Assembly: GCA_001874335.1 (NCBI GenBank)
Contig: MPDE01000004.1
Span: forward strand, 186,001-250,000
Length of the DNA: 64,000 bases
Direction of reading: 5' to 3'
Source: Bacteroidetes bacterium MedPE-SWsnd-G2
Lineage (GTDB): Bacteria; Bacteroidota; Bacteroidia; Flavobacteriales; Flavobacteriaceae
Of the stretch, positions 40,917 through 47,022 are shown piece after piece; the first letter of the stretch is position 1; every line of letters starts with the position of its first letter. A program made the position numbers and the translations under genes. The notes beneath the pieces were generated by a model. That model was not told where the DNA came from. It made no database searches and saw only the letters and a list, made by a program, of their open reading frames with translations.

Positions 40917-41492
40917 ATGTCAAAACCAAAGGGAGGCAAAAAGCAGATTAGTAATATTCTATTTATTATTTTTATAGCTCTTCTGTTAATTCCTCAAACC
41001 AGACGTCCAATTCAAGTTGCCTTAAATTCTATAAAGGTGGCGATTTTTAGTCCATCAATAATTGATGATTCGGAAGTTGAAAAGCTGCTGACTTATAATT
41101 GGGAATTACAAAATGAGAATGGTTTAAAAATAAATTTTGAGGATTATAAAGGTGAGGTTGTTTTAATTAATTTTTGGGCAACTTGGTGTCCACCTTGTAT
41201 TGCTGAAATGCCGAGTTTAGATGAATTGTATAAAGATTATAATGGAAAAGTAAAGTTTCTATTTGTTACCAACGAGGATATAGCAACAGTCCAAAAGTTT
41301 AAAAAGAAAAAAGATTTTCAATTTAAAATGCATTCTTCATTGTCAAGTATTCCGGCTCAATTTGAAACGTCCAGTATCCCCAGAACTTTTATATTAAGTA
41401 AGACAGGCAAAATAGTAGTTGATGAAACAGGTGCTGCAGATTGGAATAGTGATAGAACACGCGAATTATTGAATCGTTTATTATCTGAATAA
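40917..41492 (+). CDS. TlpA-like membrane-anchored thioredoxin-fold protein
   Basis: A 191-residue protein with one N-terminal membrane anchor (ISNILFIIFIALLLIPQTRR), leaving the thioredoxin domain in the periplasm. VVLINFWATWCPPCIAEMPS holds the WCxxC redox site (CPPC), and SSIPRTFILSKTGKIVVDET carries the cis-proline. It probably reduces or isomerises disulfides in exported proteins, or serves cytochrome c maturation (CcmG-like). It converges with crtY, overlapping it by 12 bases. Confidence 0.88.
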   Translation: MSKPKGGKKQISNILFIIFIALLLIPQTRRPIQVALNSIKVAIFSPSIIDDSEVEKLLTYNWELQNENGLKINFEDYKGEVVLINFWATWCPPCIAEMPSLDELYKDYNGKVKFLFVTNEDIATVQKFKKKKDFQFKMHSSLSSIPAQFETSSIPRTFILSKTGKIVVDETGAADWNSDRTRELLNRLLSE

Positions 41493-42656
41493 TACACGAA
41501 AAAATGCTTTTATAAAACTGATAGAAAACAGCGACAACATAATTTTTAAGTCTTGGAAAATTGTAGTTTGTTCATCTAAGTAATTAAATACCATTTGAAT
41601 TGAGTTTTTGGAGTAAAACTTAGTGAATATCCATTCTCCTTTGTTGTTTTCGTTGGCCAAAACGTTTAAGAATATACGATCATATAAGCGATATCTCCAT
41701 TTGGAAGCTGGAGGGTCAATTGTTTTATTTTCTTTTAATTGAGTGACAATGCGCTTCACAAAAGTTTCGGTACGTTTAAAGGAATAACCGGTAGATGGTT
41801 TTACCCAACCACCTGCGGTTCCAATTTTTGTAATAAATTTTGTGTTATCGGAATTAAAATTGAAATCAGTCATTGGTATTATACCCTTTTCAACTTCAAG
41901 TGTTTTATAATTTTTTATGTTTAAAACGTTTAGAATGTAATCTTCAATGGCATTGTCGTAAACGGAGTCATTAACAAGGTTTAAATTGAAAAATGTAAAT
42001 TCAATAAGAGCCTTGTTTTTAGATAATGGTAGGACATACATAAAACTGCTACTTTTACCATGTTTTACGGTAAAATCCATTATTGTGAAATTGTTATGAG
42101 AAAAAGAAATGTCTTCTGTTTCAATGAACACGCCCTTAAAATGTTGCTTAAGTTTTATACTTTTTGTGTCTGATAAAAAAGATTGAGGTAATCTGCTGTC
42201 AAAAACATGCGCTGCTTTAATACTGTGCTCCCCACAATTTATTACGGCATGATTTGTAGTATTATTGGAGGTGATTCCTGAGACCTCTTTATTCAACCAC
42301 GTGATATTTTCGTTGGTATTAACCTTTGCTTTTATATCAGAGTAGAAATCGATAGCTCTTATCATTTTATAGCTATACGGGGATAAAGTCATGTCAATGG
42401 TTTTCGAACTGCTTTTAAATTCAGTTTCGGACCAGGAGTGATGAACTAAATGTTTCCAATTACCATTTCCTTGTTCCCAGAAGCACCAGGTTTTATCGTT
42501 TTCAGATTTAGAAGATTTATCAATTATTACAATTGATTTCGATTTAAAAAAAGGGTCAGTTAATAGTTGATTTGCGAGTTGAAGACCAGATAGTCCTGCT
42601 CCAACTATTGCATAGTCATAAACAAAAGACGCGTTTTCTTGAGGATTATGGTTCAA
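41481..42656 (-). CDS. crtY: Lycopene beta-cyclase
   Basis: A 391-residue FAD-dependent cyclase. YDYAIVGAGLSGLQLANQLL is the Rossmann dinucleotide-binding start, DKTWCFWEQGNGNWKHLVHH matches the CrtY signature (NHTWSF-type), and GTAGGWVKPSTGYSFKRTE matches the conserved GxAGGxxxPTTGYSF segment. It cyclises both ends of lycopene to beta-carotene at the membrane. It is the last gene of the crt operon, with a single-base step from crtZ. Confidence 0.93.
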   Translation of the reverse strand: MNHNPQENASFVYDYAIVGAGLSGLQLANQLLTDPFFKSKSIVIIDKSSKSENDKTWCFWEQGNGNWKHLVHHSWSETEFKSSSKTIDMTLSPYSYKMIRAIDFYSDIKAKVNTNENITWLNKEVSGITSNNTTNHAVINCGEHSIKAAHVFDSRLPQSFLSDTKSIKLKQHFKGVFIETEDISFSHNNFTIMDFTVKHGKSSSFMYVLPLSKNKALIEFTFFNLNLVNDSVYDNAIEDYILNVLNIKNYKTLEVEKGIIPMTDFNFNSDNTKFITKIGTAGGWVKPSTGYSFKRTETFVKRIVTQLKENKTIDPPASKWRYRLYDRIFLNVLANENNKGEWIFTKFYSKNSIQMVFNYLDEQTTIFQDLKIMLSLFSISFIKAFFRVLFR

Positions 42657-43112
42657 TTATCTTTTGAAATATTTAAATGGAACAACAAGCATTCCGAAGC
42701 ATTCTCCTTTTGATTTGCCTAAGTGTTTATGGTGCATTTTGTGAGCACGTCTTACGCCTTTAGCATACCAATTGTTACTATTTCTGAAAAGTTTAAACCG
42801 TTGATGAATAAAAATATCATGAACTAAAAAATAAGTAGCTCCATAGGCCATAATGCCTAAACCAATAGGTAATGTGAACCAAACATTTTCATAACTCCAT
42901 AAGTAAAAACAAATGATACTAACGACAGCGTAGAATATAAAAAAGGCGTCGTTTCGTTCAAACCAACTGCTATGGTCCTTTTTGTGGTGATCCTTATGTA
43001 AATGCCACAAAAAACCGTGCATCACATATTTATGTGTAAACCAAGCCATAAATTCCATAATAGAAAATGTCGTCAAAAATAGTAGTATCCAATACAATGT
43101 GCGCATGCTCAA
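42657..43112 (-). CDS. crtZ: Beta-carotene hydroxylase
   Basis: A 151-residue membrane diiron hydroxylase. The histidine clusters needed for the non-haem diiron centre are present: WFTHKYVMHGFLWHLHKDHH (HxxxxH and HxxHH), LVHDIFIHQRF (HxxxxH) and HKMHHKHLGKSKG (HxxHH). It hydroxylates beta-carotene at the 3 and 3' positions, giving beta-cryptoxanthin and zeaxanthin. Placed directly between crtB and crtY with spacings of 2 and 0 bases. Confidence 0.93.
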   Translation of the reverse strand: MSMRTLYWILLFLTTFSIMEFMAWFTHKYVMHGFLWHLHKDHHKKDHSSWFERNDAFFIFYAVVSIICFYLWSYENVWFTLPIGLGIMAYGATYFLVHDIFIHQRFKLFRNSNNWYAKGVRRAHKMHHKHLGKSKGECFGMLVVPFKYFKR

Positions 43113-43114
43113 AT

Positions 43115-43954
43115 TTAAATTAAATTTAATTGATATTTGACATAGCTTCTTGTAAGAAGCTCAATTTTTTTATAGTTGGCTACGCGTATTCTTGTGGTTT
43201 TAATTTTTGGTGCAGGTGTGTTTTTTAGTTTTATAAGTAATTGTCTATAGTATCTGTAAGCAGTGAAAACCCCAAATTTGGCGTCAATAGGAAGTTGTTT
43301 TATGCCTACCAAGCCCGCTTTGAAGTCAGCCTCAATATCAGCAATAATTTCTTGCTTTGCTTTTTCGTTGAGTTGAGATAAATCTGTATTAGGAAAATAA
43401 CTTCTGTTTAACTCATCTTGATCAGCTTTTAAATCTCTTAAGAAATTTACTTTTTGAAATGCTGAACCTAATCGCATTGCTGATGCCTTTAAATTATTAT
43501 ATTTTGTTTGATCTCCTTTTACAAATACTTTGAGGCACATTAACCCAACAACATCGGCAGAACCATAAATGTAGTTTTGATACTCTTCAATGGTTAAATA
43601 ATCGCTTTTAGAAAGATCTAATCTCATGCTTGACATGAACGCATCAACTAAGTCACGATCTAAATTATATTTGTGGTAAGTTTCTTGAAACGCATTTAAA
43701 ATTGGGTTTAAACTAATTTTACTGGTCAGTGCATGATCCAAATCTTTTTCAAAACCATTAAATAATTGTTCTTTGTCATAGTCATGAAATGAGTCGACAA
43801 TTTCATCTGCAAATCTCACAAAGCCATAAATATTATAAATATCCTGTCTAATACTTGGAGATAACATTTTGGTTGCAAGAGCAAACGATGTACTATAGGC
43901 CTTTGTAACTGCCTTACTGCAAGAATAGGAAACTTGATCAAAGATTGATTTCAT
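43115..43954 (-). CDS. crtB: Phytoene synthase
   Basis: A 279-residue trans-isoprenyl diphosphate synthase of the phytoene/squalene synthase family. The Asp-rich motifs are FVRFADEIVDSFHDYDKE (first, DExxD) and KVNFLRDLKADQDELNRSYF (second, DxxxD), and the YIYGSADVVGLMCLKVF segment is the CrtB flap. It condenses two geranylgeranyl-PP into phytoene. Squalene synthase is unlikely given the adjacent crtI. The GGPP synthase gene is not in this window. Confidence 0.94.
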   Translation of the reverse strand: MKSIFDQVSYSCSKAVTKAYSTSFALATKMLSPSIRQDIYNIYGFVRFADEIVDSFHDYDKEQLFNGFEKDLDHALTSKISLNPILNAFQETYHKYNLDRDLVDAFMSSMRLDLSKSDYLTIEEYQNYIYGSADVVGLMCLKVFVKGDQTKYNNLKASAMRLGSAFQKVNFLRDLKADQDELNRSYFPNTDLSQLNEKAKQEIIADIEADFKAGLVGIKQLPIDAKFGVFTAYRYYRQLLIKLKNTPAPKIKTTRIRVANYKKIELLTRSYVKYQLNLI

Positions 43955-43963
43955 GGTTGAGTG

Positions 43964-45427
43964 TTAGTTGTTTTGAGTGTTAATTAGGTCTGCTACGAGT
44001 TTTCCCGAAATTAAAGAGGGAGGAACACCTGGTCCAGGTACCGTAAGCTGTCCGGTAAAAAATAAATTCTTAACCTTTTTACTTTGTAATTTTGGTCGCA
44101 GAAAGGCGGTTTGTAATAAGGTGTTGGCCATTCCATAAGCATTTCCTTTATACGAATTATAGTCTTCTACAAAATCATTTACGCAGTAACTCTTCTTAAA
44201 GATAATATTATTCTTAACATCTTGAGAGGTTAGTTGTTCAAATCTTGAGATAATGATATCAAAATATTGAGCCCTTAACGCTTCGGTGTCTTCCAGCCCT
44301 GGAGCTAGGGGAATTAAAAATATCCCAGCTTCTTTATTTTCTGGAGCAGCACTGTAATCTGTTATTGAAGGGAAACTAGCGTAAAACAAAGGTTTTTCAG
44401 GCCAACTCGGTGAATCATAAATGGACTTTGCATGTTTGTCGAAATCGACATCAAAAAATAAAGTATGATGATTTACGTTTTTAAGTTTTTTATCAAAACC
44501 AACGTAAAACAGGAGAGAGGATGGTGCAAACGTTTTTCTTTCCCAATAAGCTTCAGAATACTGTCTAAAAGCTTTTGGTAATAAAGATTCAGAATGGTGA
44601 TAGTCAGCTCCGCTTAAAACAATATCTGCATGTATATCTTGACCATTGGTTTTGACACCAGATGCATTTCCTTTTTTAATTAATATTTGTTCAACATTGG
44701 AGTTAGTTTGGATTTTAACGCCCAAGGACCTTGCCAGTTCTTCTATGGCAAGAATTACTTGATACATCCCTTTTTTAGGATGAAAGGTGCCAATACCAAA
44801 ATCTGCGTAGTTCATAAAACTGTAAAAGGAAGGGGTGTCGCTTGGTTTGGCACCTAAAAATAGTACTGGAAACTCTAAAATTTTAACGAGTCTTTCATTA
44901 TTAAAGTTTTTCCGAACATCTTTTTTAATTGTTCCAAAAAACTGATTTATTTTTTTGATAGTAGTTGGGGTAACAAGTTCCCATGGTGATTTACCGGGTC
45001 TGTAAACCAAGTCTTTTATGGCAACATTGTAATTGTCTTGGGCATCACTTATAAACTCTTTTAGCTTAACAGAGCTACCCTTTTCTTCAGCCTCAAAGGC
45101 TGAACATATTTTATCTAAGGTATCTTCTATGGTGATGTAATCATCCTTTCCAAAATAGACAGAATAGGCAGGGTTTAGTTTTTCAAGTTGATAGTAGTCT
45201 TCGGGAGTTTTATTGAAATCACTAAAAAAACGTTCGAATACATCTGGCATCCAATACCAAGTTGGTCCTATATCAAATGTAAAACCATCCTTTTTATATT
45301 GTCTAGCTCGTCCACCAATAGTTGAGTTTTTTTCTAAAATTGTGACCTTATGCCCGGCTTTGGCTAGGTAGCAGGATGCGGCTAATGCCGAAAATCCAGA
45401 GCCAATAATTAATATATCTTTTTTCAT
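43964..45427 (-). CDS. crtI: Phytoene desaturase (CrtI type)
   Basis: A 487-residue FAD protein. DILIIGSGFSALAASCYLAK is the nucleotide-binding fold with ILEKNSTIGGRARQYKKDGF following as usual in CrtI, and LFFTGQLTVPGPGVPPSLIS is the conserved C-terminal FAD segment (TVPGxGVPxxLISG). It introduces four double bonds into phytoene to make lycopene. It starts at 45427, 9 bases ahead of crtB in the operon. The upstream 52-base gap to the regulator holds an inverted repeat and a -7-like box. Confidence 0.95.
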   Translation of the reverse strand: MKKDILIIGSGFSALAASCYLAKAGHKVTILEKNSTIGGRARQYKKDGFTFDIGPTWYWMPDVFERFFSDFNKTPEDYYQLEKLNPAYSVYFGKDDYITIEDTLDKICSAFEAEEKGSSVKLKEFISDAQDNYNVAIKDLVYRPGKSPWELVTPTTIKKINQFFGTIKKDVRKNFNNERLVKILEFPVLFLGAKPSDTPSFYSFMNYADFGIGTFHPKKGMYQVILAIEELARSLGVKIQTNSNVEQILIKKGNASGVKTNGQDIHADIVLSGADYHHSESLLPKAFRQYSEAYWERKTFAPSSLLFYVGFDKKLKNVNHHTLFFDVDFDKHAKSIYDSPSWPEKPLFYASFPSITDYSAAPENKEAGIFLIPLAPGLEDTEALRAQYFDIIISRFEQLTSQDVKNNIIFKKSYCVNDFVEDYNSYKGNAYGMANTLLQTAFLRPKLQSKKVKNLFFTGQLTVPGPGVPPSLISGKLVADLINTQNN

Positions 45428-45428
45428 T

Positions 45429-45456
45429 GTTTAACAAATCTATGAAAAAGTTAAAC
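45429..45456. promoter_or_regulatory. Candidate operator over the crtI promoter
   Basis: GTTTAAC (45429-45435) and GTTAAAC (45450-45456) form a perfect inverted repeat, 14-base spacer, centre spacing 21 bases (two helix turns). On the minus strand a TAnnTTTG box (TAGATTTG, 45442 to 45435) lies between the arms, 7 bases from the crtI ATG. It is well placed for repression by a MerR-type dimer. A matching half-site, ATTAAAC (46395-46401), lies ahead of the regulator gene. Confidence 0.55.
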
Positions 45457-45479
45457 AAAAAGAAAACGTCAAACGAATT

Positions 45480-46379
45480 TTACAATTTTTTAACTAAAGC
45501 TTCAATGGATTCAAAAGTAGAAATGGATTTTGGAAGTTGCTCTAAATCAATTGATTCTATACGTCTGCCTAATATCCAAAATTCATGTTTTTTGTCAGTA
45601 ATAATTTTACTTTCAAACTCTTTTAAATAGTCATTTATATCATCAATCTGCGGCATTACCGTAAAATACGAAATAAAAGTTATGTTATCATAAAAGTCGA
45701 TCACATCAGAAAGGCTGTTTAAAGGTACGCTTTGTCCCAAAAAGATAGAATGATGTTTGTGTGCAATAAGTTCGTAGTTTAAATAAAGTAAACCTAATTC
45801 ATGAACTTCATGTTCTGGTAGAAATAATACAAATGTCTTTGATGAACTGATATTAGCTTTAGATTGTAATATCTCTGTATGGATACCTATTTTTTGCCTA
45901 ATTAGCCCAGAAATAAAATGCTCGTGTGAAGGCGTAATTGTATTAGTTTGCCAAAGCAGACCTATTTCTTTTAACAATGGAATGAAATAATCTTTAAAAA
46001 TTTCTGAAAAATTGAGTTCTTCAGAAATCGAATTATAGGTTTTATAAAATAATGTTTGGTCAAAATTTAGCATCGACATTTTAAAGGAATTTAAAACGTG
46101 TTCCTTAGAATCGGATTGCATACTAATTTCCTTAACTAATACAGGAATATTTTCTTCTGGTAAATTGGCTATTTTAGAGATTTTATAGCCATTTTGATTT
46201 AGATAACTAACGTTTAATAGTTTTTGAAAATTTTTGAGATCGTAAAACCTAATGTTAGTTTCTGTTCTACTTGGCTCAAGTAAGCCGTATCGTTTTTCCC
46301 AAATGCGTATAGTGTGAGCCTTAATACCTGTTAAATTTTCAAGATCTTTAATGCTAAACTGACTCTTTATATTGTTCAT
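45480..46379 (-). CDS. CarH/LitR-like MerR regulator with B12-binding-type domain
   Basis: A 299-residue regulator. The MerR helix-turn-helix covers about 8-75 (FSIKDLENLTGIKAHTIRIW, then EKRYGLLEPSRT). The helical region 95-170 contains W143 then E153-H154, the W-x9-EH motif with which CarH caps adenosylcobalamin. The following domain holds E191-x-H193-x2-G196, matching the B12 DxHxxG motif with Asp replaced by Glu; LGQSVPLNSL corresponds to the SxL segment. I infer a light- and B12-responsive repressor of the crt genes. Binding of B12 is unproven, and the Asp-to-Glu change could matter. Confidence 0.85.
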   Translation of the reverse strand: MNNIKSQFSIKDLENLTGIKAHTIRIWEKRYGLLEPSRTETNIRFYDLKNFQKLLNVSYLNQNGYKISKIANLPEENIPVLVKEISMQSDSKEHVLNSFKMSMLNFDQTLFYKTYNSISEELNFSEIFKDYFIPLLKEIGLLWQTNTITPSHEHFISGLIRQKIGIHTEILQSKANISSSKTFVLFLPEHEVHELGLLYLNYELIAHKHHSIFLGQSVPLNSLSDVIDFYDNITFISYFTVMPQIDDINDYLKEFESKIITDKKHEFWILGRRIESIDLEQLPKSISTFESIEALVKKL

Positions 46380-46400
46380 TATTTATAGTAATATATTAAA

Positions 46401-46430
46401 CAAAAATAGGGAAAATATAAAGTAAGGCAA
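46401..46430 (-). promoter_or_regulatory. Promoter of the CarH-like regulator gene
   Basis: On the minus strand TTG (46430-46428), 19-base spacer, TATTTTTG (46408-46401) give a full consensus promoter 22 bases ahead of the ATG at 46379. The half-site ATTAAAC overlaps its downstream edge. Confidence 0.7.
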
Positions 46431-46608: not shown

Positions 46609-46609
46609 G

Positions 46610-46682
46610 TGACCTGGCTGGGGCTCGAACCCAGGACCCTCTCCTTAAAAGGGAGATGCTCTACCAACTGAGCTACCAGGTC
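46610..46682 (-). tRNA. tRNA-Lys (anticodon TTT), copy 1
   Basis: Read on the minus strand: acceptor GACCTGG pairs with CCAGGTC (7 bp), D-arm GCTCAGTTGGTAGAGC, anticodon stem-loop TCTCC-CTTTTAA-GGAGA with anticodon TTT, T-arm CTGGG-TTCGAGC-CCCAG, discriminator A. No encoded CCA. It is identical in sequence to the copy at 46950-47022. Confidence 0.96.
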
Positions 46683-46713
46683 TAACGTTGTGTTTATTTC
46701 TCTAACGCGGGTG

Positions 46714-46721
46714 CAAATATA
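46714..46721 (-). promoter_or_regulatory. -7 box of tRNA-Lys copy 1
   Basis: TATATTTG on the minus strand matches TAnnTTTG about 31 bases upstream of the tRNA. No TTG at the -33 distance, unlike copy 2. Confidence 0.5.
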
Positions 46722-46810
46722 ATAACATTTTTTGTATTTAGAATATAAAAATGTGAAATAAATTGAAAGAAAAATAACTTTTAAAACATCATTTAAAATT
46801 CTATTAAAAG

Positions 46811-46894
46811 TGCGCACGAGAAGACTCGAACTTCCACGATCTTAAGATCACTAACCCCTCAAGCTAGCGCGTCTACCAATTCCGCCACGTGCGC
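46811..46894 (-). tRNA. tRNA-Leu (anticodon GAG)
   Basis: Read on the minus strand: acceptor GCGCACG pairs with CGTGCGC, D-arm GCGGAATTGGTAGACGC, anticodon stem CTAGC/GTTAG around TTGAGGG with anticodon GAG, a long variable arm (TGATCTTAAGATCGT) typical of class II tRNAs, and T-arm GAAG-TTCGAGT-CTTC. Discriminator A. No CCA is encoded. It sits between the two tRNA-Lys copies and has no promoter of its own that I can see. Confidence 0.95.
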
Positions 46895-46918
46895 ATTAAA
46901 AAGAAATATAAATGTAAA

Positions 46919-46948
46919 AAAAAAGTTAAGCAAATGCTTAACTTTTTT
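46919..46948 (-). terminator. Terminator after tRNA-Lys copy 2
   Basis: aaaaaagttaagca pairs with tgcttaactttttt; it lies between tRNA-Lys copy 2 and tRNA-Leu, which raises the question of how tRNA-Leu is transcribed. Confidence 0.7.
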
Positions 46949-46949
46949 G

Positions 46950-47022
46950 TGACCTGGCTGGGGCTCGAACCCAGGACCCTCTCCTTAAAAGGGAGATGCT
47001 CTACCAACTGAGCTACCAGGTC
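46950..47022 (-). tRNA. tRNA-Lys (anticodon TTT), copy 2
   Basis: Identical to the copy at 46610-46682 across the full cloverleaf, with anticodon TTT and discriminator A. First gene of the tRNA island in the direction of transcription. Confidence 0.96.

Follow-up and report, generated by a model that had tools for sequence, protein, structure and literature searches.

The question raised by this locus is which signal controls a flavobacterial carotenoid (crt) cluster, by which operator, and how many other genes would answer to the same regulator. The window is the whole stretch of DNA that was analysed (64,000 nucleotides from Bacteroidetes bacterium MedPE-SWsnd-G2, Flavobacteriaceae). The regulator encoded beside crtI is probably a repressor of the CarH type (class I LitR-like), which would repress in the dark with coenzyme B12, would be relieved by light and would head a family-wide set of photo-response genes.

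The regulator gene (45480..46379, minus strand; 299 aa) was assigned from the ORF list, Pfam, an alignment and a fold model. The neighbouring crtI gene (43964..45427, minus) encodes a phytoene desaturase whose best NCBIfam model is NF058655 (730 bits, cut-off 640). This is the model of a bifunctional phytoene desaturase/3,4-desaturase; since its cut-off is exceeded, products other than zeaxanthin are possible. The cluster also includes a crtB-like gene of the squalene/phytoene synthase family (43115..43954, minus; PF00494), a histidine-box hydroxylase gene without a Pfam or NCBIfam match (42657..43112, minus), which is taken to be crtZ-like from its His boxes and position, and a crtY-like lycopene cyclase gene (41481..42656, minus; PF05834). 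Three tRNA genes (Lys, Leu, Lys; 46609-47022) lie between the regulator gene and a neighbour that is presumably shikimate-kinase-like.

The regulator comprises an HTH domain (about residues 1-75; PF13411, MerR_1, 53.6 bits), a four-helix bundle with W143-x9-E153-H154 (PF02607, B12-binding_2, 33.8 bits) and a Rossmann-type domain with E191-x-H193-x2-G196, in which the Pfam Rossmann B12-binding domain gave no match at E 0.001. The CarH equivalog model NF052513 is the top of the 9 NCBIfam models listed, with 63.1 bits for a cut-off of 400, which is not reached. The AlphaFold model (35 aligned homologues; pLDDT 90.0, pTM 0.84) has as its best solved-structure match the CarH of Thermus thermophilus on DNA (5c8e; Z 18.0 over 269 residues; Foldseek E 4.6e-13), with 18% identity in the structural alignment and an rmsd of 11.6 over both domains. 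Most CarH B12-domain entries give Z 16.9-17.9 and rmsd 2.5-2.7. The B12 domain of a Chloracidobacterium MerR protein (Z 17.7) and photocobilins (Z 17.2) are tied with CarH in this list. Among the homologues listed, the nearest named ones belong to Winogradskyella (up to 64% identity; near-identical records are perhaps omitted). The aligned set consists of the best-scoring homologues, from 54 loci, and is biased to near relatives. W143, E153, E191 and H193 are found in all 54 homologues, H154 in 53 and G196 in 51; in the recognition helix, RxWE(R/K)RY, residues R25, W27, E28, R30 and Y31 are kept in 54/54. The earlier note had placed both B12 motifs correctly in this minus-strand ORF (the second reads E191-V-H193-E-L-G196), and its description of the protein as CarH-like is borne out by comparison, through the CarH-type fold and the capping motif of the homologues.

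Other positions of the B12 domain are less canonical. S237 is found in 46/54 homologues (Thr in 7/54); its position departs by one residue from the x41 spacing published for Sx(T/V). In the GG motif, G271 is kept in 51/54 and the second Gly in 1/54, mostly replaced by Lys, Arg or Gln. The residue after W143 is Gln (Q144), not His, in 52/54; the corresponding His of T. thermophilus CarH (CarHTt) becomes the upper ligand once exposed to light, according to the available excerpt of PMC8156234. The PDB contains dark-state and light-state structures of the cobalamin domain of CarHTt H132A (entry titles), so Gln after Trp need not block B12 binding. Positions 192 and 217 were mapped onto CarHTt by pairwise alignment. 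Position 192 is I/V/M/G/L/F (mostly I/V) in the 54 homologues, with no Arg at the dimer salt-bridge position, and position 217 is S/T/N; the T. thermophilus-type Arg-Asp pair is thus absent. The residues of this CarHTt dimer salt bridge (an Arg beside the axial His, presumably R176, and an Asp) are in part assumed.

The Glu at position 191 is of another kind. An Asp-to-Glu change as a lineage trait, as the earlier note had it, is ruled out: the aligned residues of T. thermophilus CarH are E-R-H-E-I-G and the classic motif is given as D/ExHx2G in the part of PMC9304148 that describes it, so E191 is ordinary for a CarH. The other lineage-specific detail then proposed, the operator, holds, since its layout differs from that of the CarH operators described in the same excerpt. 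Judged from the alignment, the real departures from CarH appear to be the Gln after Trp, the loss of the second Gly of GG and the lack of the salt-bridge Arg.

Operator O1 is predicted at the crtI promoter (45429..45456, minus): GTTTAAC (45450-45456) and GTTAAAC (45429-45435), separated by N14. Since the regulator gene and crtI are on the same strand and 52 nt apart, O1 stands between tandem genes. It covers a -7 box of the Bacteroidetes type, TAGATTTG (45435..45442, minus), the last G of which is common to the right half-site. The perfect repeat described in the earlier note, over the -7 box and 7 bases from the ATG, is exact. The 7 nt between this box and the crtI ATG lead to the prediction of a leaderless or near-leaderless crtI mRNA. 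The -7 boxes at operator sites are in line with the flavobacterial RpoD promoter TTGNTANNTTTG located before the rhodopsin gene of Dokdonia MED134 (PMC3587595, in the excerpt available). The half-sites of O1 are two inverted TnnACA, 21 bp apart, TAAACA lying within GTTAAACA. CarH operators of Thermus and Bacillus consist of tandem 11-bp direct repeats with the core TnnACA, as far as PMC9304148 was available. TnnACA half-sites over or next to a promoter element, as in CarH/LitR systems, are thus found here in the sequence (TAAACA, and TGAACA at the regulator gene), and the three or four tandem 11-bp direct repeats of the T. thermophilus/B. megaterium type are not: there are two inverted half-sites at 21 bp.

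In the own genome (3.04 Mb), GTTWAAC-N{12,16}-GTTWAAC is found at two places, both with N14, and the reversed pattern at none; given how often the half-sites occur in the window, about 0.05 perfect copies of the repeat would be expected. A chance repeat is ruled out by this expectation and by the reversed-pattern controls in the own genome and in the family. A relaxed own-genome scan (up to 3 mismatches) was rejected as evidence: it gives 355 matches per strand vs 731 for the reversed pattern, and use was therefore restricted to sites that have 0-1 mismatch or a promoter context.

Operator O2 is predicted at the regulator's own gene (46374..46401, minus): GTTTAAT (46395-46401)-N14-AATGAAC (46374-46380). 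The -7 box of the regulator promoter, TATTTTTG (46401..46408, minus; CAAAAATA on plus), is fused to the left half-site. The ATTAAAC that the earlier note had seen touching the regulator promoter is found at 46395-46401, where it abuts CAAAAATA, and is only the left half of O2. The right half-site holds the start codon (46377-46379) and codon 2 (ATGAACA); TGAACA fits TnnACA, in the same register as TAAACA at crtI. In 41/54 relatives, TTTGT begins 25 nt before the regulator start codon, so that the -7 box runs into a left half-site at -22. Each of these 41 also has (A/T)TGAAC as start codon and codon 2, N14 downstream of the left half-site. The autoregulation proposed earlier thus gains a predicted site by comparison. 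At codon 2, Asn is encoded by AAC in 41 genes and by AAT in 2, vs 424 AAC and 823 AAT for the Asn codons of the same genes from codon 4 on (Fisher p 8e-17; phylogeny is ignored in this value, as in those for the crtI side and rhodopsin). In the two genes with AAT, the right half-site lies upstream of the ATG instead: at N15 with GTTAAAC intact in L042, at N14 as an imperfect ATAGAAC in L019. The left half-site with its -7 box is found with up to 2 mismatches in 48/54 loci (reversed control 7/54). The operator of the regulator gene thus appears to be complete, which is a new observation, with a half-site formed by the start codon and codon 2; selection acting on the DNA apparently preserves these two codons for the repressor. 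In L018, a divergent SDR-type gene and the regulator share an upstream region with one N14 site, GTTTAAT..ATTAAAC.

The strict motif GTTTAAYN7TANNTTTGTTAAAC was searched in 298 family genomes, with the reversed pattern as control. It is found at 126 sites in 93/298 genomes, the reversed pattern at none. When the inner spacer is freed to N2-N12, 136 sites are found (126 with N7, 7 with N8, 2 with N6, 1 with N2) and the reversed pattern gives 5 in all. The regulator search gave a match in 244/299 genomes. The strict motif is present in 92/243 regulator-bearing genomes vs 1/55 others (G102, 81% complete); 151/243 regulator-bearing genomes have no strict-pattern match.

The crtI side was examined in 49/54 loci, those in which the crtI start was found. 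The operator precedes crtI (up to 2 mismatches) in 38 of the 41 loci where the two genes are 35 nt or more apart and in none of the 8 with a shorter gap; the conservation across Flavobacteriaceae intergenic regions that the earlier note had suggested checking is therefore found in the separated relatives. The shorter-gap pairs look like one operon behind the regulator's own operator. Over all 54 loci, an operator lies near the regulator stop in 39 (reversed control 2/54). No operator is found at crtI in the 11 loci from genomes without a detected regulator. In two of these 11, L184 (G170) and L185 (G082), CrtI is 76% identical to that of the window and the shikimate-kinase-like neighbour is kept, with regulator and operator both absent; these are probable natural deletions of regulator and operator. 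The comparative case for the predicted regulator, operator and targets, made at the level of sequence, is strong.

The classification, by the first downstream ORF, covered 89 distinct sites of the 126 strict ones: 28 lie before crtI, 58 before other genes and 3 have no ORF. crtI is under-counted here because sites beside the regulator gene were mostly left out of the classification. The 58 other genes encode FAS1/fasciclin proteins (32), GLPGLI proteins (14), crtW-like proteins (3; 241 bits, under the model cut-off of 350), MsrA (2), flavin-reductase-like proteins (2) and, one each, a DASH cryptochrome, a rhodopsin, a MutS-like protein, a protein with a Sortilin match below its cut-off (L134) and one unassigned protein. 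The groups were obtained by single-linkage BLASTP and named from profile-scanned members, only some per group being scanned. Zeaxanthin synthesis, the target named in the earlier note, stands in that the operator precedes crtI and is too narrow in that the motif marks far more genes. Targets predicted for the own genome are crtI, a FAS1 gene (C1:35192), a GLPGLI gene (C12:134873) and a CIA30-SDR gene (C9:10394), with a second GLPGLI gene (C17:103402) and a second FAS1 gene (C9:16505) outside the strict pattern. DASH cryptochrome genes have the operator (up to 2 mismatches) within 400 nt in 4/30 fetched loci (reversed control 0/30) and within 1480 nt in 8/30 (reversed control 1/30); with such low counts, they are a weaker target than rhodopsin.

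Some sites are given here for themselves. At C12:138568, a site with 2 mismatches precedes a TetR-like/ABC1-kinase operon and its -7 box points the wrong way. At G000:C16:95140-95167 (L120 9141-9168; L064 1501-1528), a strict operator with its -7 box is followed by no ORF; a terminator-like hairpin with a T run lies about 160-190 nt downstream, which makes it a candidate light-controlled small RNA. The layout is similar in G300 (L165 1025). The body of the putative small RNA is not conserved: the only full match is the own genome and the others are short, many of them being the operator; Rfam gave no match at the G000:C16 place. In L103 (1501-2955), the operator is followed by a small zinc-ribbon-like ORF (CPVC...CSQRC), presumably DUF2256-like, and then by a DASH cryptochrome gene. 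In L146, one site (2629, minus) precedes an apparent short FAS1 remnant and the other an intact FAS1 gene.

For rhodopsin, the test began from the genes: of the 74 rhodopsin matches, 70 were fetched, G090 and the three weakest being left aside, and L237 was then dropped for its short upstream stretch, which gives the upstream regions of 69 family loci (L224-L253, L284-L323). The operator (up to 2 mismatches) is found in 32/69, vs 1/69 for the reversed control; with up to 3 mismatches, the numbers are 45 vs 4. With the spacer set to 14, 32 loci are found; with any other length in the range 8-20, the number is 0 to 4. In many of these operators, the -7 box ends just before the right half-site. 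Loci with the operator amount to 30/57 in regulator-bearing genomes, the other 27/57 being outside 2 mismatches, and to 2/12 in genomes without a detected regulator, which were labelled by hand from the regulator search (the two are G169, 73% complete, and G102, 81% complete); taken alone, this association has p 0.03, phylogeny ignored. The three top-scoring rhodopsin loci (L224-L226) have 4-6 mismatches and are perhaps another rhodopsin type. The own genome has no rhodopsin match.

The mechanism proposed is as follows. In the dark, the regulator would carry adenosylcobalamin, with H193 as the lower ligand and W143, E153 and H154 capping the adenosyl group. It would oligomerise, and two of its DNA-binding domains would each occupy one TnnACA half-site. 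The half-sites, GTTAAACA and its mirror, face outward at a distance of 21 bp, or two helical turns, so that the bound regulator would cover the -7 box and the transcription start of crtI, of its own gene and of the other targets. It would then block the housekeeping RNA polymerase: at this distance the half-sites share a face of the double helix and span the -7 box, so a bridging dimer or tetramer should exclude the polymerase. Light would break the cobalt-carbon bond and the complex would disassemble, which would turn on carotenoid, rhodopsin, repair and envelope-protein genes. B12 binding, DNA binding, the oligomeric state and light as the signal are predicted attributes. The lost salt-bridge residue and the altered operator geometry may fit each other. 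The fullest version of this proposal is favoured with clear reserve: a Flavobacteriaceae CarH-type B12 light repressor would directly control proteorhodopsin, carotenoid (retinal precursor), cryptochrome, methionine-sulfoxide repair and FAS1/GLPGLI genes from a dyad operator unlike the known CarH tandem repeats, through a remodelled oligomer, its own start codon being a half-site.

Cofactor supply is plausible, since the PF01923 adenosyltransferase is present in the own genome and in 275/298 family genomes; this is only permissive for B12 binding. When only genomes of 90% completeness or more are counted, 3/about 220 with the regulator lack PF01923 (G008, G087 and G302, the latter by absence from the positive rows) vs 8/about 28 without the regulator, G261 being counted among those without (sole match HTH-like, E 3.8e-4); small genomes confound this contrast, which therefore supports the proposal weakly.

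It is unlikely that the regulator represses through these operators and is no longer a B12 photoreceptor, whether by acting without B12 (partner protein, redox, metabolite) or by sensing B12 supply and not light. The loss of one half of GG, Q144 for His and the altered dimer-interface residues would suit this reading; so would Pseudomonas class II LitR, which are held not to bind B12, use the symmetric TGTACA-N12-TGTACA and of which one answers to a LOV photoreceptor (PMC9758184, available excerpt), and the B12-independent CarA (PMC9304148, in part). CarA of Myxococcus xanthus, however, has lost the Trp of Wx9EH according to the same excerpt, whereas here 53-54/54 homologues retain W, E and H as well as the axial His. 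The fold is nearest to holo-CarH and other B12 photoreceptor domains, the frequency of the adenosyltransferase (275/298 genomes) also argues for B12, and carotenoid, cryptochrome and rhodopsin genes are among the predicted targets.

Many MerR proteins activate, and classical ones do so from between promoter elements, which would make the regulator an activator; this is improbable, since the -7 box and the probable transcription start lie under the operator, and since crtI is retained, behind another upstream sequence, in genomes that lack the regulator, which is more readily explained if a repressor was lost. The characterised CarH proteins also repress, as described in the available part of PMC9304148. 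We infer repression and not activation from the operator position and from the crtI genes kept where the regulator is absent. It is hardly probable at all that the repeat is an extended promoter, e.g. one read by an alternative sigma factor, or that a different, unlinked regulator binds it. The fusion of the right half-site to the -7 box at O1-type sites and the sites far from the regulator gene could be read in this way, but in O2 the -7 box is on the left half-site and the right half-site is on the start codon with the spacing still N14, the own-genome CIA30 site has no TAnnTTTG box, no sites are found at crtI where the regulator is absent, and TnnACA, the known CarH core, lies within GTTAAACA.

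A CarH-type repressor is thus the reading retained, and the place of the regulator among proteins of the CarH/LitR kind is well supported; its predicted operator is unusual and its predicted target set is wide and partly unexpected. T. thermophilus CarH has a carotenoid target too. With this CarH, a class I LitR (5c8d, 5c8e), the regulator shares the domain order, the fold, the Wx9EH cap, ExHx2G with the axial His, the recognition-helix residues, the TnnACA half-site and the promoter overlap. The differences are an identity of 18% in the structural alignment, Gln at the position of H132, the lack of Arg at that of R176, one inverted half-site pair at 21 bp and not tandem 11-bp direct repeats, and a wider predicted target set that includes rhodopsin in many relatives. 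M. xanthus CarA/CarH are likewise MerR and B12-domain repressors of crt genes (repression being predicted here); their operators also hold inverted repeats, but as several 11-bp repeats over about 55 bp (PMC9304148, available part), and the Trp lost in CarA is kept in the window's regulator. Pseudomonas class II LitR (PplR1, PmlR2) have symmetric two-half-site operators and regulate light-inducible genes including a photolyase gene; unlike the window's regulator, they use TGTACA half-sites with N12 and have only the helix-bundle half of the B12 domain, and for PmlR2 a LOV protein is the photoreceptor (PMC9758184, same excerpt). Their site, TGTACA-N12-TGTACA, means that operators made of two symmetric half-sites have a precedent in the wider family. 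MliR of Bizionia argentinensis is also a MerR protein of a marine flavobacterium; unlike the window's regulator, it has no effector domain and has an iron-related role, according to the part of PMC9478572 available. For the light-induced crt genes of Chryseobacterium, the available part of PMC7064467 reports no car or lit genes and states that a new regulator may exist. In the open-licence literature, no paper on a flavobacterial regulator, operator or target set like these was found among the matches listed.

The elements that are new here are the complete predicted operator of the regulator's own gene, the family-wide motif targets (crtI, FAS1, GLPGLI, crtW-like, MsrA, cryptochrome) and the rhodopsin link. 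In the sunlit sea, flavobacteria rank among the principal heterotrophs that carry rhodopsin. A 28-bp motif of fixed geometry, a named regulator and a list of targets make their light response testable, and FAS1 lipoproteins and GLPGLI proteins gain a candidate role in photoprotection. If the proposal is true, light-harvesting would be tied to two outside cues: light, and the availability of coenzyme B12, which the repressor uses as its cofactor.
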